Below, piece by piece: positions 10,360 to 52,436 of a DNA stretch of 64,000 nucleotides. The stretch lies in the NCBI GenBank assembly GCA_033816765.1, contig CM066291.1, forward strand, positions 5,394,001-5,458,000, written 5' to 3'. Source of the DNA: Nothopassalora personata (lineage: Eukaryota; Ascomycota; Dothideomycetes; Mycosphaerellales; Mycosphaerellaceae). Position numbers and translations under genes: made by a program. The notes below the pieces were generated by a model. That model saw only the letters and a list, made by a program, of their open reading frames with translations, was not told where the DNA came from and searched no databases. Numbering within the stretch: the stretch's first letter is position 1; each line of letters opens with the position of its first letter.

Positions 10360-10374
10360 GGTTATGAGCCCGAG
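10360..10374 (+). promoter_or_regulatory. primer-binding site, initiator tRNA-Met anticodon-arm type
   Basis: GGTTATGAGCCCGAG abuts the 5' LTR. Its complement contains GGGCTCATAACC, the anticodon stem-loop of initiator tRNA-Met, rather than a tRNA 3' CCA end. Priming by a half-tRNA of this kind is known for Drosophila copia, so this fits the element's copia-type pol. Confidence 0.8.
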
Positions 10375-10829
10375 TTTATGTAGGAGTAAGAGCAACCTAT
10401 ATCAGTACAGGTTACTTGTATCCCTTGCTATTATAGCAGAAAACATCTAGGAAGCAGAAGTCTACCCCATCTGTCCTATTAGGGAGCTTAGTTTAATACT
10501 AAGTAATAGGTAATCTAGAAAAGGACTCTATGCGGCTTACTATAAGCTAATACCTTAAAGACACTCTACAGGTAGAACTGCATCGAGATACTATTAAGAA
10601 GGACTTCAAGTAAGTTATTTAGAACTCTACTAGGAGAGATAGACCTATGTCCTAGCTCCGAGACCACACCGCTCTTTCTTCACCCTACTAAGTAGGCCTT
10701 AGTATCTATACCTACTATTCTACACTAAAAGCCTTAGCAGGACCTAAGCCACTTTAAAGCATATACACCTTGTTTCATTACATTCAATTCATTATAGATT
10801 CACACTAAGAGAAAGGAGAAGAGAAGGGG

Positions 10830-13800
10830 AACAAAATCCCAATTCTTAGGAGAGACAACTAGAAGAGATAGTTCAACCTTTAAAGATACAAGATAGAGAG
10901 CTAGTTAGCATTCTTTACAATTAATAACCTGTTAGAAGTGTTATTTAACAACATTAAGGGCAAAAACCTAAGACTCTAGGAAGAGACTAAGATTAAAGAG
11001 ATCCTTAATGTACTAACATAGACAAAACAAAATGCAGCTTGCAACTTTAGTATCCTAAGTAGGATTATAGAAGAAGATGAATTTAAGCTTAAGGGCTCTT
11101 ACGAATCTAGAAAAGCTACTAAGATATAGGTGCATCTCTAGAATAAGTATAGCTAGGTGTTACTAACCTATGTATATAAGCTCATAAAACAGTTTGTGAA
11201 CTTTGAGATAAGTGAAGAGTTCACCATTAGATCTACATAGGCACACCTAGTGTCTCTTAGAAGGAGGATTGCTAATGTTGACCTAGAGGGCCAGTACTAT
11301 AGGAAAGCTAATGTGAGAATAACCTAGCTTTTAAGCTTACTGCTACCTAACTACTATATAGCTAGGGATACTATTATAGCTTAGCTAAAGATAGATCATA
11401 AAAGGACCTTAAAGATCCTTAAGGCTTAAGAGGCTAGATTAAATCCCTCTAAGGCTAAGTATAGTATAGCAGCCACCTAGGTTAGGCCCTTAGGTTAGGT
11501 AAGATCACTTTCCTGCCTTCTCTATAAGAAGGACCATCTTATTAAGGACTGCCCTAGTCTCTCTAAGGTAAAGAAGGTCCTTAGATCTCATTCCTAAGCA
11601 CTATCCTCCTAGAATGCAATACATATTAAGAAGAGAAGATCTCTACTACTATCTTTAAGAAGAACACTAAGAGAGAAGTCCTCTATAGAGGAACTTAAGA
11701 AAATAGTGAAGAAACTTAGCTCTAACATGCTATTACTCTAGAAGAACTAGGCCTAGTCTCCTTCCTCTAAAACAAGGAAGACTAGGAAAGGTTTCTCTAC
11801 CCAAGAGCTACCTAACTTATGCAACTCATCCTAGAAGACAATGTCTAATGATAATAAGTATAATAAAGTAGCTCACTTAACTATAGAAGTCTAAGGCAAG
11901 TTCCCCTTATTAGAGTAGTTACTTAATTCTTATGCTTTATCCTATATAACTAACTAGAGCTGCCTCTTTAGATCCATGACTCCCTTAATAAAGAAGAAAT
12001 AGATCAAAGTAGGAGGTGGGCATTTGTTAGCCACTTATATTAGGACTGTAGAGATAAGTAGGAGATCTAGCATAAAAGTTGTTTTAGAAGATGTTCTACT
12101 TGTACCTAAGCTAGGAGTGAACCTGGTTTCTTAGAACTAGTTCAGCAAGCAGTTTAGTGTCTAACCTCCTTCATTTTCTCTTATATCCCCCTCTAGCTAA
12201 ACTGTTATCTAGACAAGGCTTATTAGGGGGGTTCTATTTATTAATAAGATTTCTCCTCTACTATAAGAAAGGGCACATTACTTATTATATGCACCACTAA
12301 TGGAGAATGCCTTTATAACTGCTAAATTAGAGACTAACCTAAAACAGTAGGAGCTTTAGTATAGAAGATTTGCACACTTTAGGAAGAACTTGCTCTAGAA
12401 TCTTTATAAGGTAATAGACTTAAAAGAACCTATTCCTGTTCCTAGGGATAGCTTCTACTAGTGTAGAGTGTATTCAATAGCAAAGATAAAGAAGTACAAA
12501 GGCAAAGTTACTAAGAGAAGACCTAAAAGACTTGCCCTTGTATCCATTAACATATGTAGTCCACTGCTAACATCAAGGCTAGGGTTCAAATACTAGCTTA
12601 AGATTATTAACAACTTCTCTAGAAAGAAGTGGACCTGTCCTCTTAAGAAAAGAGAAGATGCTCTAGTTGCTCTTTAGAACTAGAAGATTAAGGTAGAGAG
12701 GAAATCATTAGCACAGTTAAAAGCAGTTAGGCTTAATAATGTAAGGGAACTTATTGTATTAGTTAAGTAGTAGGAGAAGGGTTTGGAAATTAGGCTAGAG
12801 TATACTAAGGCATACAACTCGCTCTAAAATGGACTAGTTAAAAGGTTAATACAAACCTTAGAAGACTCTATAAGGGCAATGCTTAAAGAGGCTAAGATGC
12901 TAATTGAATTCTAGCATAAAGCACTAGAAGCCTAAACCTACATAAGGAACAAACTACTAAATAGTCTAGACTATAATAGGTTTAAGGTTTTACTAGATAA
13001 AGCCTTTAATGGTATTAAGCTAACTATTAACCATTTGAAGGTTTAGGGATGCAAAGCTATTGTCTACATGGACATAAGATCCTAGCCTTAATAGGCAAGA
13101 AGTGATAGACTGATAAATAGAGGCAAAGAAGCAGTGTTTGTTAGATACGTTAAAAACACAGCTAAGGCCTAGCTCTTTTAGGAACTAGACATAAAAGCTG
13201 TTAAACAACACACACATATAGACTTCTTTAAGGACTAACCTAGAGGTAATATAGATCTCAATATTACAAAATTGAATCTATTAAGCAATGCACTAGCTAG
13301 GAGACCCTTAGGAAGGCTAAGGAAGGACATATCCTTAGAGCAACCTGTTCACTATTTAATCATTTAGAGCCTAGTAACAGCCCAACTAAGAAAGCTGTTT
13401 ATGTAACTTCCCTAGCCTCTAAAGAATGTAGGGGAATTTCAGAAAATTGATGAGCTAATTAAGATGAGCTTACTAGATCCCTAGGAAAAGGATGTTACTA
13501 GGACATAAGTGACTACTCTTAGATTATCCCTTAGTAAGAGGAGGGCTAACTATAATGTTGAGGGCTATAAATAGAAACAGAAAGCCCTAAGATCTATAGT
13601 CCCTGTACCTAAACTAGCTACTAAAGTGGGAGAAGCAATAGACCTCTTAGAGAACCTTGCTGCTTACTACTAAGCTTTCTTTACAGCTATGCAATTAGTA
13701 GATGATTTAGTACTATAGGATAGTGAATTCCTAGAAGAAGTTAAGGAGATGGCCTTTATAGCAACTATAGAAGTCATTATATACAAGCAAGAGATCCCAA

Positions 13801-15425
13801 TTCTAAAGTCCTATAAGGATGCTATAAATAACAAGAAATAGGGACACCTTTAGAAGGAAGCAATCTAGAAGGAGCTAGATGCTCTATAGAGTAACAACAC
13901 CTAGGAGAATGCTGTTCTACTAAAAGGAGCAAACTTAGTTACGTTAAGATAGGTCTTTAATGTTAAAAGAAGCATTAGTGGAGCTATTGAAAAGTTTAAG
14001 GCTAGGCTAGTTGTAAGGGGCTTTTTATAGAAGTTTAGTGTTAACTTTATAGAGACATTTGCGCCTACAGTTAGATAGGACACCCTTAGGGTGTTTATGG
14101 CTATTATGTGTAAGAAGGATCTCCATCTTCACTAAGTAGATGTGAATAATACGTTTATAGAAAGCACCCTCTATAAAGACATCTTTATATTACTACCACT
14201 AGGAGTTGAGCTTCCACTAAACATAGTGTTTAAGATCCTTAAAAGCTTGTATAGACTTAAGCAAGCAGCTAGAGATTGGAATCAACTCTATGTGTTAAAG
14301 CTTAGAGAGATTGGATTTATATAGTTAGAGGTGGATCCATGCCTACTTATCTAAAAGGAAAAAGAGATTATGATTCTTACATATGTAGATGACATTCCAA
14401 TTACTACACTAAAGTTGACAGATGTTCTCTAGTTCAAAAGAGAACTTAGTAAAGTCTTCAAGATTAAAGATCTTAGTAAACCTAAAAAGATCCTTAGCAT
14501 AAGAGTTATAAGGGACAGGAGGAGAGGAATCCTAAAACTTAACTAGGGACACTTTATTAGGGACAACCTTGCTAAGATAGGGATAAACTATAAGAAGGCA
14601 GCACCTATACACTCACCTATAGACAGCTATAAGGCTCTTAAACCTTTAAGCTACATAGATAAGAGGTGTGACAAGGTAGAGTACTAAAGTATTAATAGTA
14701 CATAGATGTAGCTAGCAACAATTATAAGGCTAGATATTGCTTTTGCCCTAGGAAGGATAAGCTCATTTATAAGTAACCTATCCACCCACTATATAAAGGC
14801 TTTAAAGAAGATTATAAGATACCTAAGGTTATATCCTAATCTTAGCCTTATCTTCTCTAGGCATAGAGAAGGATGCCTAGTTGGATACTATAACTCTAAT
14901 TATGCAATAGACAAAGTAGACAGAGTCTCTATCCTTAGGTATGTCTTCTTCCTCTATAGGGCACTAGTCTCCTAGATGAGTAAGAAGCAAAAGTCTATAG
15001 CAACATCCACAATAGAAGCTAAATACATAGCTATAAATGCATGTGTAAAGCAATCCCAATTCCTAGCTTCACTGCTAAGGGAGATAGACTGTCTAGAGTT
15101 AGTAGGAGACTGTTCCTATTAACTAAGGATCACTAGAAACTAGGAGACTATGTTAAGCTTAAGACTAGTCCAATTAAGAGGTAACAACTAAGCTGCCCTT
15201 ACCCTAGTGAAGGACACACATGTTTATAACAAGTTAAAGCACATTAATATTGCCTATAATGCTATTAGGAAACTTTAGTAGAGAAGGCTTATTACTATTA
15301 AGTATACCCTAACATCTAAGATAGTTGTAGATAGGTTCACAAAGCTAAAGACTAGTCTACACTTCTAGAGGTTTGTAAGCTAGCTTAACCTATTATAGAG
15401 GTCTAAATACTACTAATAGGAGAAG
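10830..15425 (+). pseudogene. copia C gag-pol polyprotein remnant
   Basis: Reading through RIP-type stops gives the following. Gag has a damaged zinc knuckle near 11510 (C-L-L-Y where CxxC is expected, then KDHLIKDC). A protease segment lies near 11920, with Asp-Ser-Tyr where Asp-Ser-Gly is usual. GAG-pre-integrase and integrase follow at about 12350-13100. RT lies at about 13900-14500, with the open stretch 14142-14324 (LYRLKQAARDW) and YVDD at about 14386. RNase H is around 14870-15080 (SKKQKS, STIEAKY). Replacement of the second zinc-knuckle Cys by Tyr and of the protease Gly by Tyr is more than RIP alone needs for Gly, so other mutations may also be present. No functional protein can be made. 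Confidence 0.85.
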
Positions 15426-15461
15426 AGTAGACTGTGACCTCCTATGTAAGATAAGTGGGAG

Positions 15462-15708
15462 TGTTAAGATGTAGCATCTTAAGGGGAGCTAATAGTTAGG
15501 TTATAATCTAATAGCCTAAGGCATCTACGATGACTTAGCTTGTCGGAAGACACCTTCTCTCCCCTTTAGCTTAGATAGACATCTAACACAATTAACACAT
15601 TAGTTCCTAATATATTGCTGCATGCCCTGTGGCTATTAGCTAGTTAAAGATTGATCTCTTACTCCACTCCGCTACTAACTACGTATCCTGTTAGGTCTTA
15701 ACTTAACA
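15462..15708 (+). repeat. 3' LTR of copia C
   Basis: 247 bp, nearly the same as 10113-10359. Differences such as GTGGCATC/GTAGCATC and AACAGTTAGG/AATAGTTAGG are C-to-T or G-to-A changes in a CA/TG context, so the LTRs diverged mainly by RIP and not by time. Confidence 0.93.
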
Positions 15709-15713
15709 CTTTC

Positions 15714-16745
15714 CTTTATTTGTACCGTTACTACGGTTACGACTCTTATCGCCGCGGCTACGACGACGGTCGTTATTATTGTTATCGTTCCTACTAACTG
15801 TACCTACTGTAGGCGCTAGTAGTAGAGGCTCGTCCTCTACTAAGGGTTCGCCTATAAAGGTTACGAAGACTAATCGACCGTTCGTAGTAACTAGGGTAGT
15901 ATCGCGTATCTATTCGAGGTATCGCTCGGTAAGCTTACTAAGCGAGAGCTCATTACGCTTCTACTCGTTATATAGTAATGCTCTATAGGTAGGAGTTTTC
16001 TACTATATCGTAAGTAGGAAGTGTCCTAGTAGGTCTCCGTACTCGGTATAGTTACAATCTAGCATCTTAGTCTATAGTACTAGCTAGTCTAAACACTAGT
16101 CGTCGACCCTTTGGGCCTAGCTCTTCTAAAGCCTATTTAGCTCTAGTGTAAGCTATCGCTTACGTAATATGTCGTTTAGTCCGTACTGATCCTTTAGAGC
16201 CTAGACCTTGCCTCTAAGGGTACGTTTACTATGCATTAGCTCCTAGCCTAGCTCTATAGTAGTCCTAATTAGGTAGGTGACTAATTTAGACCTTGCGGAC
16301 GTAAAGATGTTATACATCCGCTACCTACGGTCGGCGTCTAACTAGCGGAGCTTAATAAGCTCCTTATCTTTAGCCGTAGCGTCTTTAGTAGTGTATACTA
16401 ATTGGATTTGCTCGAACGTTAAGTACACCGGCTCTATTGGCTCGGCAGTAGTGTCGTTCGGATCTACATACTTCTAGATGTTTAGAGACTTAGCGTAGAG
16501 CTCTAACTAACTGTTAAACTTGTCCTATTAGTTATAACTCTTAAGAACGATAGTAGCGTGCGGTAAAGCACCGGTACTACCGGGTATCTCGGTAGTCGCT
16601 ATAACGGTGTTAATGGGCCTAATGAAAGTTCCTATAGGTCTACTAGGGTTACTGCACTACTATGTAATAGTTGTTAATAGGATAATAATAGATCCCACTG
16701 GTTCTTTATAACGATGCAAAATCTACTCTAGGGCTTCGTTTTGTA
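15714..16745 (-). pseudogene. copia A gag remnant, upstream part
   Basis: The reverse complement matches 39250-40270 of copy B. The frame is coherent when TAG/TAA codons are read as former Gln, with a hydrophilic helical N-terminal region and a basic Arg/Asn/Ser-rich stretch near 15720-15780 that suits nucleic-acid binding. The 5' end is interrupted by the solo LTR at 16751. Confidence 0.7.
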
Positions 16746-16750
16746 TAGCG

Positions 16751-17069
16751 TGTTACGGATCGGTCTGGGGAAGCCCGTAGCCAACCAATCGATGCCAGCA
16801 GACCAGCGGATGCACCCGATATGCAGAGCGCTCTCAGTGCTCTCGGGTGCTCTCTCGAGAGAGCAGAGAGAGCAGAGAGAGCAGGAAAGATCACGCCAAG
16901 ACACGGCACTATATAGACGACGCTCTTTTGCAAGTAGATAGGAGCCTCGTGCTCAACTCATTTTAAGTATACACCATATACTGTTTGGGACCACTACCTT
17001 CTCAACGAGTCAGAGACATCACTGCAAAGATCCAAGCCCAGTTGGGATAACGTACAGCGGTTCCTAACA
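16751..17069. repeat. solo LTR, not RIPed, inserted in copia A leader
   Basis: 319 bp beginning TGTTACGG and ending CCTAACA, flanked by TAGCG on both sides (16746-16750, 17070-17074). Copy B has the empty site at about 39222-39240 without insertion, which confirms the boundaries. It has normal CA/TG content, a TATA-like CTATATAG near 16910, and a purine-rich stretch of GAGAGAGCA repeats (16855-16885) facing CTCTC repeats. I see no internal region, so it is a solo LTR left by LTR-LTR recombination, or possibly a short LTR-like non-autonomous element. It does not match the LTRs of A-F. Confidence 0.88.
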
Positions 17070-17091
17070 TAGCGAACGTTAGTAAGCGCCT

Positions 17092-17105
17092 GTCGGGCTC
17101 ATAAC
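17092..17105 (-). promoter_or_regulatory. primer-binding site of copia A (initiator tRNA-Met anticodon arm)
   Basis: On the minus strand, directly after the 5' LTR, the sequence is GTTATGAGCCCGAC, the same type as in copia C. Its complement carries CGGGCTCATAAC, matching the anticodon arm of initiator tRNA-Met. Confidence 0.78.
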
Positions 17106-17311
17106 TATTACGTTATAAGTAGTTAGAAGTTATAAAATGGGCTCATAAAGGTGTTTTAAAAGTAGGTAGTAGATTGCATGTATCTAAGCTAGAATTGAAA
17201 GGGCTGCTTATGAAAAGGCTATAGGTGACTAATTAATGTTACCTAATTCTTAGCCGCTACTACCTTAGGTTTAATTAGGCTATAGCGCCGGTGTACGCTT
17301 AGATCGTAACA
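17106..17311 (-). repeat. 5' LTR of copia A
   Basis: 206 bp, TGTTACGATC...ACGTAATA on the minus strand, flanked on its outer side by GGTAT. The differences from the left LTR are mainly RIP-type transitions. Confidence 0.93.
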
Positions 17312-24208: not shown

Positions 24209-24586
24209 TAATGTCTACCAACCACCCTATGTAGGCCTGTCCGAGTTGTGGTGGTATGGAGCGGTGCTTGCGTAAGCAGGGGTATTTGCCGGTCCTGGGA
24301 CCGGGAAATCAGGTCACGTGACGAGCAGCGCAGTAGCCAGGTAAAACAAGAGGATTGGCGGACCCTAAACCCCTATACCCTCTACTCGAGAGGTATGAAT
24401 TGAATTGTTGCCTTGATGCTACGCTTACAATACTCAACTGCGCAGTATATATCTCAATGGCCATACCAGGTCCTGCTGGCTTGCCCAAATGTCCAATCAA
24501 ACCTAAATGAATTTGGGCAAGTTGGACCCAAGGGACCCCTTCCCAAACCCAAACCCAAGGTCAACACAACCCATTAGTCGTCAATA
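24209..24586 (-). repeat. 3' LTR of element F
   Basis: 378 bp. The plus-strand ends are TAATGTCTACC and GTCGTCAATA, i.e. a short imperfect inverted repeat TAATGTC/TATTGAC with the canonical TG...CA three bases inside. It carries a copy of the long palindrome (24284-24309) followed by GTCACGTGAC, a perfect E-box-type palindrome. Confidence 0.95.
24284..24309. promoter_or_regulatory. 26-bp GC-rich palindrome, LTR copy 1
   Basis: Half-site ATTTGCCGGTCCT facing GGGACCGGGAAAT; near-perfect dyad with a CCCGGG-like centre. TCACGTGA follows within 6 bases. Three further copies occur in element F and nowhere else that I noticed in the window. Confidence 0.75.
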
Positions 24587-24600
24587 TATCCTCCCCCATT
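24587..24600 (-). other. polypurine tract of element F
   Basis: On the minus strand the sequence directly before the 3' LTR is AATGGGGGAGGATA, a purine-rich plus-strand primer site. Confidence 0.85.
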
Positions 24601-25059
24601 ACGAACCTGTCCTCAGGTTCCAAAGCAGTAAGCCCGGGCCTACCATTCAGCTTGACATACAAGATGTCAGGCAATCCGTGATGGTGACGTCAATAATCCG
24701 CGACTCGCGCCCGTCGCACTGCGTTGACGTATGCCACGAGACTGGCGAGGGGTTGGGCAGCTATGTCAGCATCAATCGAACAGGCCAGATGGTCGAACAA
24801 TGTAAGCGCCATTCATGAGACAAGTGAGTGTCAGTACCAGTAACCTGATAAATCCAAAGACGAGTCCATCGCGTGGCCAGAAAGTGAGTCAAGGGAAGAT
24901 AAGTGACCATAAGAAACAAGTAAGATCTAAGGACCAGAAGCACCCGTACCCGAAGCATCAACCAGAACCAGAACCAGAATCAGAACCAGAAACCCATAGG
25001 CTACAGCTGTAGCCGGAAATCAACCAGAAACCAGGAGCCCATAAACCCGCACCAACCAC

Positions 25060-27963
25060 TCAGTTCCACTCATTCTCACACAACTCCTTTGTCCAGACCC
25101 ACTCGTTGTCGTGGCCAACACCAATCTCACTAGACGCGTCCCCAAGTGGCTGGTTGGTGAAGTTCCCATGGTAGTTGCGGAAGACGCTCTCATCACGCCC
25201 TTCGCTTGTGAAGCACATCTGCTCGAGAGCAGTGACCAAGCTGAGCTGCTTGTCCATCAACTTCACAGCTCGGACGCGCCATTCATGCATCTTCTTGTGG
25301 AAGAGCTCCGAGTCTGGGCGGACCGCAGCATCAAGCCACCTTCTAGCATCAAGGATGACTTCGTTGTCGTTCCAGGACTTCAAACCCGCTAGGGCATCGG
25401 ACAGGGGGCTGATGCCACTGAGGTGTACGGCCGCAGGGAAAGGATGGCCAGGTACTGGGCGTCGATACTCAAACCCTGCAGCGCTCTCACTTGGCGTCTT
25501 GAAGTCACGATGGAGGTCCATCACCTGGTGCATGCTCCAGCTTCTCTGGAGTTCAAGATAGTCATCGTCGCGGATCGCGATAAAGCAAGGGTCAATCTGA
25601 CGCAGCGTCTTCTTGTGTGCGGCCTGCCTCATTGGAACGCCTGCAGTGGTCACCCGCATTTGCCCAGCGCTTAGGTCCTCTCTGAACCAGCTGATGCTGT
25701 TCTTGCTCAGGTAATTCTGAACCCCAACCGAGAAGAAACGCTTAAATCGGCCGTCTTCTATGCAGTCGTTGATCTGGCACCACTGGATGAACTCTGCAGC
25801 ATTCCCTTGCTTATGAAAACCGTGTAAAAACTCCGGCCCACTGGTGCCCTCTGAGTCAAGAGAGTACAGCATGTTGAGCCGGTTGCTAGTCCAGTAGTTT
25901 TCAATTTCGAGGTTCAAGTCGACCCCAGCATGCTGCACCATGGTGTTCGCATCACCCCCCTGATGAGCCCTGTCAAAGCTGAAAATCGTAGGCCTGGGGA
26001 AGGAGATGAACCGAGTGCAGTGTTGAGGGTGCAGCGCCACTTGCAAGAGCCACAGCCCGGGGTCTTGTCGCATGATCTGTTGGCTCAGAGAATACCACAT
26101 GTTCTGGCAGACGCCGCCGTTGCTGACCTTGTTCAACTCTCGCAGGTGCCATCGGTACACGTCGAATTCTCGACTCATCATCTCTCTGACTGTTTTAACC
26201 CGCGGCGCTAGTTCAGCGTCATTGTACCAGTACAGCATGTTGCCATTGATGTAGGTACCGGTGCTATCGAGATCGGCTTGGTCAGCTTCATCAATGCCAA
26301 ATTTGTCGAGGATCTGATTGTAGTTGGCATGCGTGACGATGCCACTCGTGGTGCCGGCTTTGCCTCGAACACGGAGGCAGCCAAGCGGGTTGACAGTCTT
26401 CTGACCACGCTTGTCAGGGCGAAACCACGACCCATTCTTCACCTTGATAGCTGAAAAACTCTTGCCTTCAAAGAGCCAGTCTTGGACCTTGAGCGCGCGC
26501 TCACACAGGGTATTGGTGGTGATACCGGGATTCGTGACGAAGTGGAGGGCCTTGTGGCAGAAATCTCGGACATGCTGATCGCACATCACAGCGCTAACCT
26601 TGCCATCCCTCTCAAGAACCTGCGAGACCGCATATTCGAGCATCTCAAGGCCCGCCATCCGGTGCTCAGGTAGCCAGTCAATGCCATCCACATCAATCGA
26701 GTTCCTGAACTTGATGCCACAGTACCGCTCATTGCAGGTGCAGTTGGCGCGCTTGATCCGGAGGGCCTCGTCTTCCTGCAGGATCTGATCCTTGAAGACT
26801 GATACATCCCTGATCACAGCCGAAGGTGACATGGTGAGTATCGGATTGCCACCCTCAGTCAGGGCCGGAGTGGATCGTGGGGTGCCAACCGGTGTACCCA
26901 GCGGACTGCCTTCGCGTATGGGTGCGCCGTCCAGCGTTCGGTTAGGCGAGGATTGAGCAGGCGCAGTCATGCCCTCACCTATGCTCTCGCTCATGCGGAG
27001 CTGCTCAAGTCGACTCGACTTGCGACCGCCTCTCGATGGGACTGCAGGCTGGGTAGAGGCTGGTGGAGTTGGCGTGGTAGTCTTTGCACGTCCTTTGCCT
27101 TTGCCACCCGGTGGTGGCTGAGTCTGTTGCTGGCCAGATGGTCCAGGTTGACCTGTGCTGTCCTCTGGGGACGCGGACTTCTCAGTGATAGTACCCTCCA
27201 TGAAGTATGGAAGGCCATCCTCATAGACGGCTAGGCGGTGTCTTCTGATGATCTCCCTGCTCTCAGCCGACTGCGGATCAATGCTGCGTGCTTCAGCCTC
27301 CCTGTCGCACCGGGTAAGATCACCAGGCTCCAGAATTCGCTTGCGATCTATGCCCTTGCGGCCGATCCTCATACGCCAGATCAATGCCCTCTGAATTCTG
27401 CCAACAGCCTTGCTGTAGTCTGGGTACTTGTTGATGAAGGCCGTGAACTGGCGGCGCCCACTGTCAGTGCTGCAAAGCTCGGAGATGACGCGTCGATCAA
27501 GAATCTTGTTGTCCATCTGCTGTGGCCAGTGGCGGGTAAGCGTGGCGCGAAGAGTCCTCTCTCGGTTACGAATCTCTGAACCGGTCTTGCGAATCTTGCC
27601 GACGATGGGAAACAAGACATCGAGCTTCCTGTTACCAAGGAATTCATCCTGGTAGGTCTTGCCCATGCCGCTCTCAACTTCCTCGAAAAACAGGTCAACC
27701 CAGACGGAGCAGTCTTCGAACACCTTCTCGAAGCCCTTGCAGAAGTCCTTCAACACCTCAACCCGCTTCTGAGGACTGAGCTCTCGGAACATGACATTAG
27801 CGGCGGACTTCGGCGTGTTCGTGTTGGCAAGGACATGCTTGACGTTGTCCGGCAAGCGAAGGGACTCGAACAAGGTCTGAGGTGGGCGGGTGAGCCCAGT
27901 AACAGTGCTAGTGAGCGCTGTGCTCGAGCCAGCCGGGCGTGACGATGGACCAGCTGAAGCCAT
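25060..27963 (-). CDS. third ORF of element F, 967 aa, unknown function
   Basis: A single uninterrupted frame in sense orientation downstream of pol, where env-like or accessory genes lie in other retroelements. Layout: helical N-terminal region (about 30-250), a Pro/Gly/Thr/Ser-rich, probably disordered linker with basic patches (about 260-390), then a C-terminal region (about 400-967) that looks globular. A Cys cluster CTCNERYCGIKF is at 408-419 and another CDQHVRDFCH at 461-470. In 655-860 the pattern FSFDRAHQGGDANT, GPEFLHGFHK, GQMRVTT, DPCFIAIRDDD recalls fungal double-stranded beta-helix (2-oxoglutarate dioxygenase-like) proteins, but a clean HxD...H iron site is not evident, so I do not assign it. 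No signal peptide or membrane segment is seen, which argues against an envelope protein. Confidence 0.8.
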   Translation of the reverse strand: MASAGPSSRPAGSSTALTSTVTGLTRPPQTLFESLRLPDNVKHVLANTNTPKSAANVMFRELSPQKRVEVLKDFCKGFEKVFEDCSVWVDLFFEEVESGMGKTYQDEFLGNRKLDVLFPIVGKIRKTGSEIRNRERTLRATLTRHWPQQMDNKILDRRVISELCSTDSGRRQFTAFINKYPDYSKAVGRIQRALIWRMRIGRKGIDRKRILEPGDLTRCDREAEARSIDPQSAESREIIRRHRLAVYEDGLPYFMEGTITEKSASPEDSTGQPGPSGQQQTQPPPGGKGKGRAKTTTPTPPASTQPAVPSRGGRKSSRLEQLRMSESIGEGMTAPAQSSPNRTLDGAPIREGSPLGTPVGTPRSTPALTEGGNPILTMSPSAVIRDVSVFKDQILQEDEALRIKRANCTCNERYCGIKFRNSIDVDGIDWLPEHRMAGLEMLEYAVSQVLERDGKVSAVMCDQHVRDFCHKALHFVTNPGITTNTLCERALKVQDWLFEGKSFSAIKVKNGSWFRPDKRGQKTVNPLGCLRVRGKAGTTSGIVTHANYNQILDKFGIDEADQADLDSTGTYINGNMLYWYNDAELAPRVKTVREMMSREFDVYRWHLRELNKVSNGGVCQNMWYSLSQQIMRQDPGLWLLQVALHPQHCTRFISFPRPTIFSFDRAHQGGDANTMVQHAGVDLNLEIENYWTSNRLNMLYSLDSEGTSGPEFLHGFHKQGNAAEFIQWCQINDCIEDGRFKRFFSVGVQNYLSKNSISWFREDLSAGQMRVTTAGVPMRQAAHKKTLRQIDPCFIAIRDDDYLELQRSWSMHQVMDLHRDFKTPSESAAGFEYRRPVPGHPFPAAVHLSGISPLSDALAGLKSWNDNEVILDARRWLDAAVRPDSELFHKKMHEWRVRAVKLMDKQLSLVTALEQMCFTSEGRDESVFRNYHGNFTNQPLGDASSEIGVGHDNEWVWTKELCENEWN

Positions 27964-28564
27964 GATAACTAGGATTCACTATCAGTGAGATCGTAAGAGC
28001 TGGCTATCTCGTGGTGCCACTCTGGAGTGTTGGTAAGCTTTGAAAGCTTGGTATCGGGGTGGGCTTTGAAGGTCAAGGTCGTGAAGAGAGAGAGGCCAGA
28101 GAACCGTCTGATGTGTGGTGGTAGGTGGATGTGTTGGTGGTTCTGGTGATGGTGCTAGTGTTTGAAGAAAAAGAGAGGAAGTAGCAGGCAGAGAGCTGCG
28201 CTTAAGGATGCCTCTCAGCGTATGTCCCTGTGACCGTTGCAAGGCAGCAGCGCCGAGACCGGTCTCATAAGTGGCAAGAGCAGTGCCATTGAGATCACAC
28301 TGAAGGTCCGATGGCCCTGCATGTGACCGAAAACCAGTGCTGGTGACCACCTAGGTGAGCATTCGGCAGGGGGCATGCCACGCTGTCACGTGATCCGATT
28401 TACCGGTCCCGGGACCGGTAAATGTGACTCTACTAACTGAGGTCCAACCAAGGCAAGAACACCCCATGAAGTGAAGTCCAGATAACCGAATCGGCTTAAC
28501 AAACTGAAGGGCATGCGCAACACATGCCTAAGGGAAGTGAACTCCGTACGCCATTGCCAACTGA
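27964..28564 (-). other. spacer between pol and the third ORF of F
   Basis: About 600 bases with no convincing gene; a 122-codon frame at 27982-28350 (minus) lacks recognisable features. It contains the perfect 26-bp palindrome and GTCACGTGAT. It may carry a promoter for the third ORF or splice sites that bring it onto a spliced subgenomic mRNA; the sequence alone does not decide. Confidence 0.5.
28398..28423. promoter_or_regulatory. 26-bp palindrome, internal copy (perfect)
   Basis: Half-site ATTTACCGGTCCC followed directly by its exact reverse complement. TCACGTGA lies 4 bases to its left, the opposite side to that in the LTR, so the two-part module is present here in inverted order. Confidence 0.8.
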
Positions 28565-31500
28565 TTAGTTCTCAGCCTCGATCCTGCTGAACTGTGAAAT
28601 TTCGGCTGCAGAAAGGTCATGAGGCCTGACCCATAGCTTCTTGGATTCCGGTTCAGGATACGATCCCCTTTCGTCAATTCCTACAGGTAGCACGTCTTCG
28701 TCGGCGATGGGCTCGATCTCGTTCGAATCACTGCTGTCTTCGCTATCAGCGACTTCTCCCTCCCCCATTACGAGATCGATCCCATCATCCAGGCCTGGTA
28801 CTCCTATGTTATCCGGGCGAAGCTCTGGAACTAGCTTAAGGTTTTCTCGTGCCTGAACTCCCTTCATTGGCGTGCCATCAAGTTCCTCAAGAATATAGGT
28901 ACCAAACTTCCTGGAGACACTGGACACCCGATATGGACCTTGCCATCGGTAACCGATCTTGCGTGAGAAGTCATCCTTATATGGCTTGTCGAACCTCATG
29001 ACAAGGTCGCCCTTCTGGAAACCAGCAAAGTCAACATTTCGGTGAGAATCGAAGTAGTCCTTGCTAAGTTCTCTTAGTCGCTTCCTTCGAGCATGCAGCT
29101 CTTCCAAACTAAGGTCTCGAGCCTGGAGTTGACGCGCACGTATGGCAAGCAGGTCCTCAGTCGTTCTCACCGATCCCCATTGATAATTCGCCCACGTCGG
29201 GTACTCAACCTCAATTGGCAGAATCGTGCGATGGCCATACAGGACCTGAGCCGGCGTCATTCCAGTAGTACGACAGGTCGTGGTCCTATCAGCCCATAAC
29301 ACAGCGGGTACCCATTGCTCCCATCCGCGGTATGTGTTCCTTGTAAGCTTTGCTAACGCTGCAAGAATCGGACGGTGCCCAACCTCGACCGGAGCATTAG
29401 ACTGCGGATGGTACGGTGATATTCGGATCCTTCGAACACCAAGTCCTACGAGCAACCGCTCAACCTCAGCCGCATGAACCGTAGCGTTATCAAGCACAAT
29501 TTCAGCACAGCAGCCGTGCCTACAGAAGACATCTTCGTATAGAAACTTGGCAACTGTCTTCGAGCTGGGAGGTGCCTTTGTCACTCTAGCCTCGATCCAG
29601 TTGCTGAGTGCTTCGCGCGCAACTAGGAGGTATCCATTTTTGTGCACCTGGACGGGGTCCGAGTACCACTTCTCACCAATGACCTGAGGGCTCGATGAGT
29701 GAAGCTCACCAGCGCGCTGGTTGCCTTCGCGAAACCTACAAGGAGCACAACTTCGAACCCACGCAGAGACATCGGCGAAGCACCCGTCCCAGTAATACCG
29801 ATCGGAAATAAGGTTGTACACGACCTCAGCGCTGCGATGACCGTGTCTTTCATGGCATTCTATGACGATCTCCTTCTGAGCCTCATCATCGTCAATCACA
29901 AGTTGCAACGGTGCTCCTCGGCGCTTCTGGAAGAACAGCAATTGGTCTCGGACAAAGAAGTTGACGCTCTTCTTCACCAGCCGCCGGTACTCAGCACGGG
30001 TAACACCATCGGGCCGGGTCCTGGTTTCTATAACCTGAGCAAGCTGCTGAGAGCCCTCAGAATATTGGTCCCCGAGATGTCGTGTTTTCTGGATTTCAAC
30101 TGGATAGGTGTCGACCGGCTCCGGGTACCTGAACAGCTTATCATCAATCATCTGGTCGACTTCGTCTTCGTCAGCTTTCCTGGGTCCTTGAGGTGTAGAG
30201 GGCCTTCGAGACAGGGCATCTGGGCCAGTGTGTCTAGTCCCCGCAACGTGCTTTACCTCGAACGTGAACAACCTGATCCATGCGACCCACCGGGCCATTG
30301 CCGAGTTTGGCAGGTCCGAAGCCGGCCGGTTAAGCTGCCATACAAGTGTCTTGGCATCAACCTCAAGGACAAAATCAACGCCAGTGATATATCTCTGGAT
30401 CTTCTTAAGCCCCTTAAGGACCCCAAGGCATTCCCGCTTCCCAGCATCATATCTGGATTCTGACGCGCTCCAGATTCCACTCTCATACCGCACCGGGTGA
30501 CGCCGTCGGGTACTGTCCATTGATTCTTGAGAAACGATACATCCCCATCCAGTGCCGCTAGCATCAACTGAGACAAAGATGGACCCAGCACCAGGTGAGT
30601 AGCAGAGGGTAACTAAGGCTGGAGCCTGCACAAGGTACCTAGCAACCTCTTCTTTTGAGAACTGCTCATTTTCTGTCCAGGTGAACTCGGCGTCCTTCTT
30701 CAGCAGTTTGTACATTGGTCGAGCGATGATAACGAACCAGGGAATCCATATCCGGAAGTACACACACAGCCCCACATAGGTGCGGACCTCCTTGATACAG
30801 GTAGGCGTAGGCCAATCCAGGATCTTGGCCACAACCTTTGGGTCAGGATAGCGACCATCCGGGCCAGTAACGTACCCAACAATCTTGAGCTTTTCGTATA
30901 ACCATTGGGATTTGCCTCCAGCAACTACCGCACCAGCTCTTTCCAGGTCAGCAAGAACCAGATCCAGGGAAACGATGTGCTCAACGACCCATTTTCTCAA
31001 CCCAGGCTCTAGTTCGGCATTCCCATAGTCCTCAGTTGGTCCCTTAATACCGATGTCATCGAGAAACGGCTTCGCTCGATGCGAGATATGATCAAGCAGA
31101 ATCTTTGTTACCGCACGCACGAACTGAGCAACTGAATTGGTAGCTCCTTGAGGCAGAGTCGTGTTGCGTACTAGGCCAAGAGGGGTCATGAAGGCTGTTA
31201 AGTCCCGGCAGGACTCATCCAAAGTAATCTGATCATAACCTGAAAACAGGTCCACAAGTGAAGCGACTCGGCACCCGGCAAAATCCTCTGAGAAGCTATC
31301 CGTGTCCGGTGGAATGTTAGCATCGCGCATAGTAACCTCATTCAGGAGCACAGCTGAGTTGATCAACCGATATGGCACATCGCTTCCAGAGGCATCAACC
31401 TTCTTTGCGACCAGGAACCAGCTATTGGAATATGCCCCTTGTGAGTATTCTAGGATGTTATTCTTGATCCGGGCTCTAATCATGCGCTCAACAATTGCCC

Positions 31501-32386
31501 TAAGACTTGGGTGCAACCGGATAGGGCGTGCCTGCCATGGCCTATGAGGGACCGTGTTAATCTTCTGAGGTGGCACGACGTCGTGCCTAATTTGCCTCAT
31601 GTGACTGAAATCCCAAGCGAGGACTGCCTCCCGGTTGTAGAGCATCTCATCGAATAAGGCCCTTTCCATTGGCAATAGCTTGATGCCAACCTTGATTGAG
31701 GTAAGTCGTTCTGGAGTGATCCGGCTACCTCGCTCAATACTTGAGAATTTCTTAGTCAAGTACTTCCCATCAAACGGACCTTGTCCTTCAGGCATCTTGG
31801 ATTCCAGGTACAGTGCCCTGCGCTTCCATTCCATATCTCCCTCAACTCGTGATTCTGGGCGTTCGTGAACGCTCGCGTCCACTGGCTTTTTCTTGTCCGC
31901 CTTACGCTTGTACATCGTGAAGACCTGCGGCATCCTAATGTTAGCTATATGTAGGCCTGCTTGTTGCTTCCGTGCCTGAGCATTCAATGCAGATTGTCTC
32001 AGGATCTCGGAGGGCCAGTCCCCTTGAACTGAATAAACGTTAGCAATAGAATCTCCCTCAAACGCGCCTGTTCCAATTTCTGCAACTCGTTCCTTTGCTA
32101 CAGCAGTCCTAAGCAATCCCAATAAGTGAGCTGAATGGTTGCTAGGCGTTAGAGCCTTGCCGGGTTCCTGCAGATGCGTCGTGTCGTGGTCGTATCCGTT
32201 TTCCTCACTATAGCTATTTACCGGTCCCGGGACCGGCAAATCAAAGTCCGAGGTTTCTCCGAGATAGTGCGAGAACCTCACTGATTTTGTCAAACCCGGC
32301 TTTAGCAAATCGGTGGGTTGAGCGCCGTAACTCAACCCACCATTCCATTTCCCGACGCTTTCAATAGTTCCTGAAGGGTTTTGCAC
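28565..32386 (-). CDS. pol: element F pol: reverse transcriptase, RNase H, integrase (1273 codons)
   Basis: Domains in order: RT with FLDDIGIKGP as the catalytic box (residues 441-450; FLDD replaces the usual YxDD) and LPQGATNS at 411-418; RNase H with SVDASGTGWG (606-615) and DALSRR (723-728); integrase with an HHCC zinc site (H845, H849 or H850, C880, C883) and catalytic D910, D966 (LDNAT) and E1001 (APVEVGH). This is the Ty3/gypsy order. No chromodomain is seen; the tail is acidic. The frame overlaps the end of gag by 55 bases in the -1 register and has no ATG near its start, so it is expected to be made as a Gag-Pol fusion by frameshifting. All catalytic residues I can place are present. 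The FLDD-IKGP style box recalls Ty3-type elements known from basidiomycetes, from memory only. Confidence 0.93.
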   Translation of the reverse strand: MQNPSGTIESVGKWNGGLSYGAQPTDLLKPGLTKSVRFSHYLGETSDFDLPVPGPVNSYSEENGYDHDTTHLQEPGKALTPSNHSAHLLGLLRTAVAKERVAEIGTGAFEGDSIANVYSVQGDWPSEILRQSALNAQARKQQAGLHIANIRMPQVFTMYKRKADKKKPVDASVHERPESRVEGDMEWKRRALYLESKMPEGQGPFDGKYLTKKFSSIERGSRITPERLTSIKVGIKLLPMERALFDEMLYNREAVLAWDFSHMRQIRHDVVPPQKINTVPHRPWQARPIRLHPSLRAIVERMIRARIKNNILEYSQGAYSNSWFLVAKKVDASGSDVPYRLINSAVLLNEVTMRDANIPPDTDSFSEDFAGCRVASLVDLFSGYDQITLDESCRDLTAFMTPLGLVRNTTLPQGATNSVAQFVRAVTKILLDHISHRAKPFLDDIGIKGPTEDYGNAELEPGLRKWVVEHIVSLDLVLADLERAGAVVAGGKSQWLYEKLKIVGYVTGPDGRYPDPKVVAKILDWPTPTCIKEVRTYVGLCVYFRIWIPWFVIIARPMYKLLKKDAEFTWTENEQFSKEEVARYLVQAPALVTLCYSPGAGSIFVSVDASGTGWGCIVSQESMDSTRRRHPVRYESGIWSASESRYDAGKRECLGVLKGLKKIQRYITGVDFVLEVDAKTLVWQLNRPASDLPNSAMARWVAWIRLFTFEVKHVAGTRHTGPDALSRRPSTPQGPRKADEDEVDQMIDDKLFRYPEPVDTYPVEIQKTRHLGDQYSEGSQQLAQVIETRTRPDGVTRAEYRRLVKKSVNFFVRDQLLFFQKRRGAPLQLVIDDDEAQKEIVIECHERHGHRSAEVVYNLISDRYYWDGCFADVSAWVRSCAPCRFREGNQRAGELHSSSPQVIGEKWYSDPVQVHKNGYLLVAREALSNWIEARVTKAPPSSKTVAKFLYEDVFCRHGCCAEIVLDNATVHAAEVERLLVGLGVRRIRISPYHPQSNAPVEVGHRPILAALAKLTRNTYRGWEQWVPAVLWADRTTTCRTTGMTPAQVLYGHRTILPIEVEYPTWANYQWGSVRTTEDLLAIRARQLQARDLSLEELHARRKRLRELSKDYFDSHRNVDFAGFQKGDLVMRFDKPYKDDFSRKIGYRWQGPYRVSSVSRKFGTYILEELDGTPMKGVQARENLKLVPELRPDNIGVPGLDDGIDLVMGEGEVADSEDSSDSNEIEPIADEDVLPVGIDERGSYPEPESKKLWVRPHDLSAAEISQFSRIEAEN
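32216..32241. promoter_or_regulatory. 26-bp palindrome inside the 5' part of pol
   Basis: Half-site ATTTACCGGTCCC facing GGGACCGGCAAAT, one mismatch from perfect. It is translated as part of pol (residues DLPVPGPVN, about 49-57) just downstream of the gag-pol junction. Confidence 0.75.
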
Positions 32387-35244
32387 CTGTCCGAGCCAAC
32401 TAGGGCAGTAAACATGACACTTTCACCTTTGCGGCTGGCAATAGTCCCCTCCCATGAACCATCATCGCAGTTACGGGCAGTGAGCCGCACCTTGCGGGCC
32501 CACGGACGTCCTAGGATTGTTGGCGAGTTTGGATCCGAGGAGATGAACATGTCCACTTGGCAGTGAACCCCAAATACCCAAACATCCAAATTGCCCACAA
32601 CACCTTTGAACTGGGCCCGCCCTCCAGCACCTCGAAAGGCAAGCTGAGCACTCGACATTACTGGTAACCCAAACCTATGAGCGTTCCTCTGGCCGATGAT
32701 ATTCACCTCGGAACCCTCATCAATTAGGCACCTGATCTGGTTCTTGTTCGTCCCAAATTCCGCTACTACCCAAGGACTAGGGACCATAGCAAAGTTGTCA
32801 AGGACACTAGAGAGCCCGATCTTCTCAACATCCTCATATAGCTCAGCAGCAGGGACCGCACCCTTGGAGCAAAGCATGGTTGAATACACTCCGACATACT
32901 GGGCCTGACCATCTTCGCGGAAGACCTCCTCATTATACTCAGGTTCATCTTCACAGGTGACCACTTGTCCAGTGCGAACCTCAGGGTCCTTTCCTGCAAG
33001 ACGTCGCACTGTAGCGAGCTTCTCCTGAAGAGCGGGGGTGTTAGCAACGCGACCGAAGAGGGCAGCCTCGAACCAGCGACCATATCGAAACCAATCTTGG
33101 GCGTTCACACTGGGAAACGTTGTCTGGAGGATCTGATCAATCCAGTAGATGATACCCTCTTCCTTTGTAACCGGGCCATCACCAGCTGAACCATACTGTC
33201 GGACGTAGTTGTCAATCCTCATAGTCTTGGCATTCTGCATACGCTTCCTTTGTGCGAAGGGGGCGTTCACGGGACCAACAGGCATATCCTTAGGCAGTCC
33301 TTTGTTAGCATCGTTCCCTGGTCTGTTCACTTGGGCATCACTTCCCCTTCCTAGGGTTACCCCGGATCCAGCTGATGACTGAGTTTCGCTCATTTGAGCA
33401 CTGACTTCGTCAATCATTTCAACCTCCTGCTGGTCAATCTCAGCTTGCCGGATCTCCTGTTCCAATTGCAGGCGAACTTTCTCAGCAGCCTCAGCTCGGG
33501 CTCGCAGATCCTGGGCTGAGGACCGGGTCCTCGGGTACGGATTCTTCAGAATACCTACGGGTGCCTTCCCTTTCACTTTGTCAGACTGCACAGGATAGGC
33601 AGATACCTCGTCAAGCTCGCCCAAGTCGGTTGCCTGCTCCGCTTCACTTTCTCCGAATGAGACCCAATATGTCCCAGCAGCCTTCTCCTTTTGGCCAGAC
33701 CGCGCGTCCTGAGGGCCATACTCCATTAAATGCCTGAAGTTAGGAGGGGGCTTAGAATGATCAGGAGGCGTGACCTTAGTCACCCCAGCGTAGTCCCTAC
33801 CCATCCATTGCTTACGCAGTGCGGGAATCTCATACTGGTTGTCAAACTCGATCGGTCCATAATGTTCTTCGAGCAGAGGGAGCATGCAGAGCAGTTTCGG
33901 TTTGCTGTAGTCCCTCCGAAAGTTGAACTTGGTGGGACGTGGATCGCCTTCTTTCCCTAGATACCACCAGTTGTTCGGGGCGAGGTATACGTAGCCCCGG
34001 GATATTAAGGACCTCATCGCCCCACAATTGCTGGCCTGGTGCTTCGAACTGCCACAGTTGTAGCAACAACCATCCATCGCTTTGGACTGTTCGCGATTTT
34101 GCGATGGGGGACGCTGCATTGCGTAAACCTGCAGTTCAGTGTCTGGGTCGTGCCTCTCCGGTTGCATAGAGCGTTGATTCTCGCTCGGGTAGAAGGCACC
34201 CGCGTCCGCGACGCGACCGCGCTGGTATGCACGTATGCTCATTTCAGCTACCTTCTGGATTAGGTCATCATCAACAACAGTCCTGGAGGTGGCCTTCTTA
34301 AGCGTGTCAATCTCAGGCTTGAGGCGCGGCATTTGCTTCACGACTGAGCGGTGCAGCTGAGGCAAAGCAAGAGGGAAATCTGTATGCACAGCTTTCCATC
34401 CCTCCTCACCATCTGCGATGCTAGCAGCTTCATCGAGAATCCTCTGAAAGTCCCTGAACTTCTCAGGTTGCTTTGGGTGAAGCCCGCAAGCCTTGTAGAC
34501 CGCTTTCGCGACTGCCTCTGGCAATCCCTGAAGGAGAAGGCGACTCCGGGAGCTGTTATCCAAATCCTCAGGTTCAATTAGGTCACTTGAGGATACAAAT
34601 AGGCGGATGAATTCCTTCACATCTTGTTCTTCAGGCCTCTTGCCTTGCTGCGCCCTAACAATCTCCTCAAGATATTCCCGACTCCCCAACATCGAGTGGG
34701 CGTCAAACCTTGAGAACTCTGACAAGAACGCCCTCCTGAAACGTGCCTTGCCGGTGAGCCACCCAGGCAGCCTCATGACCACACGCCGGATAGTAATTTC
34801 GCAATTGCGCTCAAACCTGCCCCAGAAATCATCCTTCTTAATGGATGCCCGAGGCGGATACTGGTCCATTAGGTCGCCAAACCGCTCCCAGAACTCAGTA
34901 GCATTGGTGCCATCAAAGAACGGATTCTCAGCACCTCCTGGAGGTGGAAAGCGAGGGCCAGCGTTTTCCATTGCTACTGCCAATCGTCTAAAGAGGGCAG
35001 TCATAGCATCCATTCCAATTGTGCTGTTCATTCCTACACCCATACCCAATTCAGCGGCGCTGGTTCCGCTTCTCCCTTCTTTACTAGATTCAGGTGTTTC
35101 CCCTTCCTCCGATTCCTCCATCCCCTCATGAGGGACAGAATCCCTGTAGACCCCTTCCATTTTCGTGGGGTTCACAGGCTGTTCGTAGCCTCTGCCTATG
35201 TCGGCAAAGGTGCTAAGTTTTTCTGGTGATGCAGCCGTATCCAT
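32332..35244 (-). CDS. gag: element F gag-protease, 970 aa
   Basis: Structural polyprotein that would form the virus-like particle. The capsid-like region lies at about 100-290, with FDGTNATEFWERF and the usual helical retrotransposon-gag pattern. A zinc knuckle CYNCGSSKHQASNC (CX2CX4HX4C, 394-407) binds RNA. A coiled-coil or charged linker follows (about 580-620). An aspartic protease fills the C-terminus (about 835-925), with active site LIDEGSEVNIIG (Asp842, DEGS instead of the common DSGA) and the flap partner ILGRPW. The protease thus sits at the end of gag and not at the start of pol. ATG 35242-35244 is the first in frame. The stop follows 12 bases after a slippery GGGAAAT. Confidence 0.92.
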   Translation of the reverse strand: MDTAASPEKLSTFADIGRGYEQPVNPTKMEGVYRDSVPHEGMEESEEGETPESSKEGRSGTSAAELGMGVGMNSTIGMDAMTALFRRLAVAMENAGPRFPPPGGAENPFFDGTNATEFWERFGDLMDQYPPRASIKKDDFWGRFERNCEITIRRVVMRLPGWLTGKARFRRAFLSEFSRFDAHSMLGSREYLEEIVRAQQGKRPEEQDVKEFIRLFVSSSDLIEPEDLDNSSRSRLLLQGLPEAVAKAVYKACGLHPKQPEKFRDFQRILDEAASIADGEEGWKAVHTDFPLALPQLHRSVVKQMPRLKPEIDTLKKATSRTVVDDDLIQKVAEMSIRAYQRGRVADAGAFYPSENQRSMQPERHDPDTELQVYAMQRPPSQNREQSKAMDGCCYNCGSSKHQASNCGAMRSLISRGYVYLAPNNWWYLGKEGDPRPTKFNFRRDYSKPKLLCMLPLLEEHYGPIEFDNQYEIPALRKQWMGRDYAGVTKVTPPDHSKPPPNFRHLMEYGPQDARSGQKEKAAGTYWVSFGESEAEQATDLGELDEVSAYPVQSDKVKGKAPVGILKNPYPRTRSSAQDLRARAEAAEKVRLQLEQEIRQAEIDQQEVEMIDEVSAQMSETQSSAGSGVTLGRGSDAQVNRPGNDANKGLPKDMPVGPVNAPFAQRKRMQNAKTMRIDNYVRQYGSAGDGPVTKEEGIIYWIDQILQTTFPSVNAQDWFRYGRWFEAALFGRVANTPALQEKLATVRRLAGKDPEVRTGQVVTCEDEPEYNEEVFREDGQAQYVGVYSTMLCSKGAVPAAELYEDVEKIGLSSVLDNFAMVPSPWVVAEFGTNKNQIRCLIDEGSEVNIIGQRNAHRFGLPVMSSAQLAFRGAGGRAQFKGVVGNLDVWVFGVHCQVDMFISSDPNSPTILGRPWARKVRLTARNCDDGSWEGTIASRKGESVMFTALVGSDRCKTLQELLKASGNGMVG
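32347..32353 (-). promoter_or_regulatory. candidate -1 frameshift site at the gag-pol junction of F
   Basis: In the gag frame the minus strand reads TCG GGA AAT GGA ATG GTG GGT TGA, giving the heptamer G GGA AAT of X XXY YYZ type 12 bases before the gag stop. A slip of -1 enters the open pol frame. Whether a downstream pseudoknot exists was not computed. Confidence 0.7.
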
Positions 35245-35456
35245 TGTTGCGTGGTGCTTGCTTCAGAATGTGCTGATACTAGTTGTTGCTTGACAGGACC
35301 TTGTGACCGTGATTGTTGCTGAATACCTTGGACCTTGAATGTTTTTCGACCTTAGTCGACCTTGACCGTGAACCTTGGACCTTGAACCGTGATTTTGACC
35401 TTATAAACTGGATGCTGATACGCCACCGGGTGTACACTTGATAACCCCCCCTCATT

Positions 35457-35464
35457 GACCACCA
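35457..35464 (-). promoter_or_regulatory. primer-binding site of element F
   Basis: Three bases inside the 5' LTR the minus strand reads TGGTGGTCAATGAGG. TGG pairs with the CCA tail, so a tRNA ending GACC-A-CCA is the expected primer. The tRNA identity was not determined. Confidence 0.65.
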
Positions 35465-35467
35465 AAA

Positions 35468-35845
35468 TAATGTCTACCAACCACCCTATGTAGGCCTGTC
35501 CGAGTTGTGGTGGTATGGAGCGGTGCTTGCGTAAGCAGGGGTATTTGCCGGTCCTGGGACCGGGAAATCAGGTCACGTGACGAGCAGCGCAGTAGCCAGG
35601 TAAAACAAGAGGATTGGCGGACCCTAAACCCCTATACCCTCTACTCGAGAGGTATGAATTGAATTGTTGCCTTGATGCTACGCTTACAATACTCAACTGC
35701 GCAGTATATATCTCAATGGCCATACCAGGTCCTGCTGGCTTGCCCAAATGTCCAATCAAACCTAAATGAATTTGGGCAAGTTGGACCCAAGGGACCCCTT
35801 CCCAAACCCAAACCCAAGGTCAACACAACCCATTAGTCGTCAATA
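35468..35845 (-). repeat. 5' LTR of element F
   Basis: 378 bp, read as identical to 24209-24586, with the palindrome at 35543-35568. It should contain the promoter for the three minus-strand ORFs. Confidence 0.95.
35543..35568. promoter_or_regulatory. 26-bp palindrome, LTR copy 2
   Basis: Same as 24284-24309 because the LTRs are identical; followed by GTCACGTGAC. Confidence 0.75.
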
Positions 35846-52425: not shown

Positions 52426-52427
52426 CT

Positions 52428-52436
52428 TTGTTAGAC
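52428..52436 (+). promoter_or_regulatory. self-priming site of E
   Basis: TTGTTAGAC, two bases inside the LTR, is the exact complement of GTCTAACAA at 52387-52395 in the LTR. If transcription starts there, the 5' end of the RNA can fold back and prime, as in Tf1/sushi-type elements. No tRNA-like TGG primer site is seen. Confidence 0.7.

Follow-up and report, generated by a model that had tools for sequence, protein, structure and literature searches.

A reading frame with a predicted oxygenase fold, apparently without a complete iron site, as a constant part of a fungal Ty3/Gypsy retrotransposon

Introduction

The 64,000-nucleotide stretch of Nothopassalora personata DNA analyzed here (the window; GCA_033816765.1, contig CM066291.1, positions 5,394,001 to 5,458,000) contains a long terminal repeat (LTR) retrotransposon, element F, in which a third long open reading frame (ORF3) lies between the pol stop codon (position 28565) and the 3' LTR. 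The locus raises the question of what this frame encodes and whether the element has any use for it. A first-pass annotation had proposed a captured host gene for an oxygenase-like enzyme with iron ligands, perhaps one that counters DNA methylation or silencing, and had argued that the frame must be under selection to be open in an element of such age. The answer that we favor, and to which we give about an even chance, is a different one, drawn from sequence comparison and structure prediction: ORF3 would encode a fast-evolving pseudo-oxygenase with a binding role that supports F, made from an internal promoter of its own and able to act in trans.

Results

Element F (11,637 bp, minus strand, 24209-35845) is a Ty3/Gypsy-type LTR retrotransposon of a filamentous fungus competent for repeat-induced point mutation (RIP). 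It has the LTR pair, the target-site duplication, gag, protease, and the reverse transcriptase (RT)-RNase H-integrase order of that group, and pol matches the Pfam models for RT, RNase H, and the integrase zinc-binding domain, the assignment being made with the protease and rve matches under the Pfam cut-offs. The LTRs show zero differences across 378 bp, CTAG flanks both outer sides, and the gag-protease and pol frames are both open and overlap in different frames, all in keeping with the earlier description of identical LTRs and intact genes. Because the LTRs are identical, we take the window copy to be young.

Of the ORFs of 150 residues or more, ORF3 alone overlaps positions 24500-28500. 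At its base composition, the probability of 967 open codons is ~2e-17 per given frame, and G+C is higher at the third codon position than at the first and second over most of its length, the linker excepted. Hydropathy analysis gave no membrane segment, with 19-residue Kyte-Doolittle means peaking at 0.95 overall and at 0.15 near the N terminus, and by this measure ORF3 lacks the signal peptide and transmembrane segment of an errantivirus-like envelope protein. An envelope-like gene, for which the position downstream of pol is the only argument, is scarcely credible given the missing hydrophobic segment and the oxygenase fold predicted below. The frame is thus, as first described, a third long sense ORF downstream of pol, with two Cys clusters and no envelope features.

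A search of the source genome (54.5 Mb, 40 contigs) with the ORF3 protein yielded, among the best 47 of 565 candidates scored, 19 full-length stop-free copies (including that in the window), 2 full-length copies with one TGA, and 21 relics at 75-77% identity, each with at least 48 TAG plus TAA codons; the remaining matches were truncated or otherwise broken copies. With a shorter ORF3 query, TAG or TAA stops were found in 114 of the best 150 of 402 candidates. Four relics that we aligned differ from F mostly by CA-to-TA or TG-to-TA changes, the RIP signature, and the only change of ORF3 length in them is a single in-frame linker insertion of 3 or 6 bases. F is thus an old resident of the genome, often RIPed, beside which stands a young unmutated burst.

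To follow ORF3 across whole elements, we used gag as the anchor (best 131 of 439 candidates scored, 33 of them without RIP-type stops). ORF3 sequence lies 9197-9274 bp downstream of gag on the same strand at 30 of these 33 places, and the three unpaired copies run off their contigs (C2 at its start, C25 [65,176 bp] and C23 [24,604 bp] at their ends), so that 30 of 30 testable copies carry ORF3; in some of the 30 it is split, truncated, or stop bearing. RIPed gag copies were paired with ORF3 in 37 of 98 cases against the best 150 of 402 ORF3 candidates, the 61 unpaired ones being uninformative either way. ORF3 is a stable part of the F family, which is a repeated unit of constant structure. Full-length copies lacking the frame, which the first-pass annotation had named as contrary evidence, were not among them.

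Three observations on these copies stand apart from this argument. Three copies on contig C3 (L001-L003, G000 C3:3976206-3993018) were considered as an ORF3-only nonautonomous family because of their 5456-bp spacing, and this was rejected: a full F copy apparently precedes two tandem 5456-bp partial units (each an LTR joined to the 3' portion of the element from inside pol onward, ORF3 included), for which reason we regard them as a local array. A seemingly divergent ORF3 on contig C24 was likewise rejected, being an F copy (98.3% identical, 31 gap positions). Finally, 5 of the 33 non-RIPed gag places sit in a single open frame of 2230-2232 residues (Table 1), and gag and pol seem to be fused in certain F copies and split in others.

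Structure prediction and fold searches recovered the oxygenase-like jelly roll suspected from the sequence, the C-terminal part of ORF3 being modeled as a double-stranded beta-helix; a globular domain, the lack of which had been named earlier as telling against the proposal, is thus predicted. The top structural matches of both predicted models were the DUF1479 proteins YbiU/YPO2976 and Candida GIG2 (PDB 4rgk, 7twe, 6akz), whose fold the modeled ORF3 shares at ~9-13% identity in an alignment that spans only the C-terminal domain of F. By sequence, Pfam gave no DUF1479 match for F (E <= 1) or for 77 relatives (E <= 0.1), and PDB sequence searches gave no match to the ORF3 family. The PhyH model, without a match in F at E <= 1, matched 37 of the 77 relatives at E <= 0.1. 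Tet_JBP matched neither F (E <= 1) nor the relatives (E <= 0.1), and TET/JBP proteins are unnamed among the PDB fold-search matches listed, a listing that does not exclude them. In a search of viral structures, the named matches listed came from giant viruses, phages, and a nimavirus and included PhyH-like proteins; no retroelement was among the matches listed.

The relatives were found with the C-terminal piece of ORF3 as the query; the full-length protein found none among 7,984 scored candidates, a failure that we suspect was due to low-complexity words filling the candidate list. Scans of viral contigs with ORF3, P0003, A1, pol, and A3, and of genome contigs with A1 and A3, revealed no relatives. 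The layout predicted for the family is an N-terminal helical domain, a CxC/CxxH motif that probably binds zinc, and a C-terminal PhyH/DUF1479-like 2-oxoglutarate (2OG)-Fe(II) oxygenase fold. In a tree built on 64 of the 78 sequences (14 rows were left out as too short), the terminal branch of F measures 5.78 changes per site versus a median end branch of 0.52, and the placement of F is unsure.

We then asked whether the oxygenase core of F retains its iron site. After 7 of the 77 relatives with a gap at a triad column had been set aside, the iron triad H-D-H was found in 64 of the 70 scorable relatives, whereas F reads H678, G680, and M778, departing from the HxD...H pattern of PhyH-type 2OG-Fe(II) oxygenases and contradicting the earlier notion of an enzyme with iron ligands. 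As aligned, F ORF3 would have lost two of the three. R788 aligns with a conserved Arg of the relatives that, by analogy, may be the 2OG-binding residue. The triad-site codons are equal across the 20 unmutated F copies compared; in the four relics, codons 778 and 680 read ATA and AGG, which is what RIP would make of ATG and GGG, respectively. These codons indicate that the iron site was already gone when RIP mutated the relics. Residue loss is also local to the catalytic strands: among residues conserved in at least 80% of the relatives, F retains 17 of 47 in the two catalytic strand regions versus 45 of 72 elsewhere (p 0.008), with C408, C410, C461, and H464 among the latter.

Three points weigh against this account of the site. 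Six of the 70 relatives (P0016, P0017, P0046, P0056, P0064, and P0073) themselves lack a ligand. The alignment at HxD is ambiguous, since a two-residue insertion (H-AG-V-D) is possible, in which His and Asp would be kept at the wrong spacing. Within the F domain model, moreover, confidence is lowest at the HxD stretch, and the predicted local distance difference test score (pLDDT) is ~43-65 in the CxC part, so that neither site is well modeled. A scrambled frame was rejected as the cause of the missing HxD, as neither other frame reads HxD there. As a separate observation, in P0016, P0017, and P0046 a Tyr replaces an iron-ligand His, and because such a change fits RIP of CAT or CAC, these genes may be RIP-hit repeats.

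The same evidence bears on the proposal that ORF3 is an active, atypical oxygenase, with other ligands or with H678 and a respaced D682, whose oxidation of a nucleobase would work against cytosine methylation, RIP, or RNA marks. The predicted fold and the retained Arg would suit such an enzyme, as would the precedents in other mobile elements discussed below, and the genome is heavily RIPed and has C5-methyltransferase (PF00145) matches at three gene places, on account of which cytosine methylation is possible in the host. Set against this are the H-G-M triad and the concentration of lost residues in the catalytic strands. Unmutated copies, moreover, are not special to F: all 150 of the 150 best-scored RVT_1 matches in the genome (of 1,916 candidates) are stop free, under a ranking that favors intact frames. 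F is also not protected, given the 114 RIP-mutated places among the best 150 of 402 for ORF3. We regard the anti-methylation enzyme as weak and improbable.

As to the origin of ORF3, no close host parent was seen in this genome. Queried with P0003, the genome gave matches (the best 90 of 376 candidates) that resemble F copies or relics in place and stop pattern, the one odd place being the gapped F copy on C24. The PhyH model hits six further places, all of them outside F copies. Capture of a host gene is possible.

To learn whether the frame is maintained, we compared ORF3 among recent copies at 20 loci (19 intact and 1 with a stop; the TGA-bearing C4:1640647 was left out). The changes were 21 nonsynonymous (N), 11 synonymous (S), and 1 stop, against an expected S fraction of ~0.275 (p 0.43). 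Change among recent copies is thus near neutral, and decay fits it equally well; this is the dN/dS near 1 that had been named beforehand as speaking against selection. At least 10 places have a common ORF3 break near residue 669, leaving an upstream frame of 674 residues and a downstream frame of 341 or 284; three further places have the same break plus a TGA, and the 674-residue frame occurs at 14 listed places in all. The three split copies sequenced (L043, L044, and L045) have one added base in a run of six G, and over 3,601 bp L045 differs from F only by that base and one substitution. As the gag piece is 100% identical to that of the window in 8 of 10 broken-ORF3 places and L045 is so close to F, the broken form multiplied about as recently as the window copy. 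Selection therefore does not follow from the frame being open in an element of such age, given the youth indicated by the LTRs, the neutral-fitting changes, and the frameshifted copies.

Comparison with the four relics, limited to differences that RIP in the relic does not make, gave a more mixed picture. Sites with A/T in F and G/C in the relic had S:N ratios of 11:2 in gag, 51:18 in pol, and 18:10 in ORF3 (41% S expected for ORF3; p 0.012), a synonymous lean in gag and pol that is less marked in ORF3. Transversions gave 2:2 in gag, 16:16 in pol, and 5:20 in ORF3, the last looking neutral and again fitting decay equally well. ORF3 is less constrained than pol (S23:N30 versus S67:N34; p 0.0095). 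ORF3 could accordingly be a decaying passenger, a once-useful oxygenase-family gene that is now dispensable and open only through the youth of the copies. The missing iron ligands, the neutral-looking changes in recent copies, the recently multiplied broken form, and the weaker constraint relative to pol all agree with this. What decay does not readily explain is a frame that is open despite a branch of 5.78 changes per site, the retention of the Cys/His motif and of 16 of 26 conserved pre-core residues, the synonymous lean of the A/T-in-F sites, the near-constant length of ORF3 in the relics, and its presence in all testable gag copies. Decay is a strong rival, which we nonetheless hold to be somewhat unlikely.

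The pseudo-oxygenase reading further supposes that ORF3 is expressed. A perfect 26-bp palindrome around CCGGTCCCGGGACCGG, with 0 in shuffles, is present in each LTR, close to the 5' end of pol, and at 435 bp before the start of ORF3. The window has three copies of TCACGTGA, all of them 9 bases away from the core of a palindrome; upstream of ORF3 the order of the module (28386-28423) is reversed relative to the LTRs (24284-24321 and 35543-35580), and the 9-base spacing is the same. Genome-wide, in F copies or elsewhere, the palindrome has 652 forward matches, and the reversed control has 0. Because this module is common to the LTRs and the region upstream of ORF3, we infer that ORF3 has an internal promoter under the same control as the LTR.

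Table 1. Positions of the features of element F (window coordinates unless a contig is given)
Feature	Position	Strand	Remarks
ORF3	25060..27963	-	967 amino acids (aa), ATG at 27963
ORF3 N-terminal helical region	27229..27873	-	residues ~31-245; aligns with longer relatives
ORF3 linker, low complexity, low confidence	26800..27195	-	residues 257-388; pLDDT < 50
C408-x-C410, first half of CxC/CxxH motif	26734..26742	-	columns at least 80% conserved in relatives, kept in F
C461-x-x-H464, second half of CxC/CxxH motif	26572..26583	-	columns at least 80% conserved in relatives, kept in F
ORF3 2OG-oxygenase-fold domain (predicted)	25366..26316	-	residues 550-866, structural alignment
Run of six G, codons 668-670	25955..25960	-	extra G in L043, L044, L045; presumably also in other split copies
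H678-A-G680	25924..25932	-	at relatives' HxD iron-binding motif
M778	25630..25632	-	at relatives' distal iron-binding His
R788	25600..25602	-	aligned with conserved Arg of relatives
Palindrome, pol-ORF3 gap	28398..28423	.	perfect 26 bp; 0 expected in shuffles
TCACGTGA adjoining gap palindrome, upstream of ORF3	28386..28393	.	
Palindrome near pol 5' end	32216..32241	.	no adjoining TCACGTGA
Palindrome in 3' LTR	24284..24309	.	TCACGTGA at 24314-24321
Palindrome in 5' LTR	35543..35568	.	TCACGTGA at 35573-35580
3' LTR	24209..24586	-	378 bp, identical to 5' LTR
5' LTR	35468..35845	-	378 bp
gag-protease ORF	32332..35244	-	970 aa; CCHC-like knuckle by eye; aspartyl protease matches weak, below cut-off
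pol ORF	28565..32386	-	1273 aa; RT, RNase H, integrase
Fused gag-pol frames	C3:3015099, C3:4036297, C4:136090, C9:3082525, C6:5294930		2230-2232 residues versus the window's 970-aa gag and separate pol

Elsewhere in the window, a second young LTR element (52265-59689) has identical 161-bp end repeats, no third long ORF, and ORFs of 781 aa and 1589 aa, the latter being pol, which matches a Tf2-1-type SH3 domain and, below cut-off, a chromodomain. A 15-bp tandem repeat, ACATAGATGCTTCGA, occupies 49530-49724 in ~13 units. Long inverted matches of 93-97% link AT-rich stretches within 4321-17311 and 38986-60569, consistent with RIP-mutated repeats.

Discussion

On the reading that we favor, ORF3 belongs to a fungal family of predicted oxygenase fold whose iron-binding form, seen in relatives from other fungi, is presumably ancestral. 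Loss of the iron site would leave a noncatalytic protein that no longer works as an oxygenase and, because two of the three metal-binding residues are absent, ORF3 is probably a binding protein rather than an enzyme. Its target might be nucleic acid, a modified base, 2OG, or a host protein. The protein would be made from the internal promoter bearing the LTR-type palindrome and TCACGTGA module and could be used in trans by other F copies, as is suggested by the fact that copies with a broken ORF3 multiplied too. A bolder version, which we offer as a long shot, is that F and its relatives form a retrotransposon-borne lineage of nucleobase oxygenases directed against cytosine methylation or RIP, that of F having turned into a noncatalytic reader by which the DNA or RNA of F itself is guarded or marked, for example at the repeated palindrome.

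Oxygenase ORFs in orchid Gypsy elements and TET/JBP proteins in fungal DNA transposons are already known, and the combination found in F differs from both. Ty3/Gypsy elements of Phalaenopsis carry an ORF for an AlkB-type 2OG-dependent dioxygenase with conserved cofactor-binding residues and demethylase activity in vitro (PMC9289625). F likewise has the genes of an LTR retrotransposon plus one ORF more, placed by its predicted fold in the 2OG-Fe(II) oxygenase superfamily; unlike the plant elements, it is fungal, and its ORF3 is PhyH/DUF1479-like, has apparently lost iron ligands, and has additional N-terminal domains. The TET/JBP dioxygenases of fungal DNA transposons and Helitrons, in which HxD/E and a downstream His are described as conserved and for which RIP is discussed as an opponent (PMC12730594), share with F the setting of a fungal mobile element and a 2OG oxygenase fold, whereas F belongs among the retrotransposons, and the structures that match its ORF3 best are those of DUF1479 and PhyH proteins. 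LTR retrotransposons of bdelloid rotifers have, like F, a nonenvelope ORF3 beside gag and pol, in their case an enzyme (a GDSL esterase or a DEDDy exonuclease) and not of oxygenase fold (PMC5408684). Complex fungal LTR elements with added domains have been attributed to multiple nested insertions at one locus (PMC3248453), in contrast to the constant repeated unit that is F. Among the papers listed in literature searches that covered few subscription journals, no title or opening of an abstract described a PhyH- or DUF1479-like ORF in a fungal LTR retrotransposon.

In this fungus, then, a gene with a predicted oxygenase fold is a fixed part of an LTR retrotransposon in a genome subject to heavy RIP, its iron site apparently lost and other parts kept. 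If functional, ORF3 would be a retroelement pseudo-enzyme, and the relatives that have the complete triad make both forms of the protein testable in parallel.
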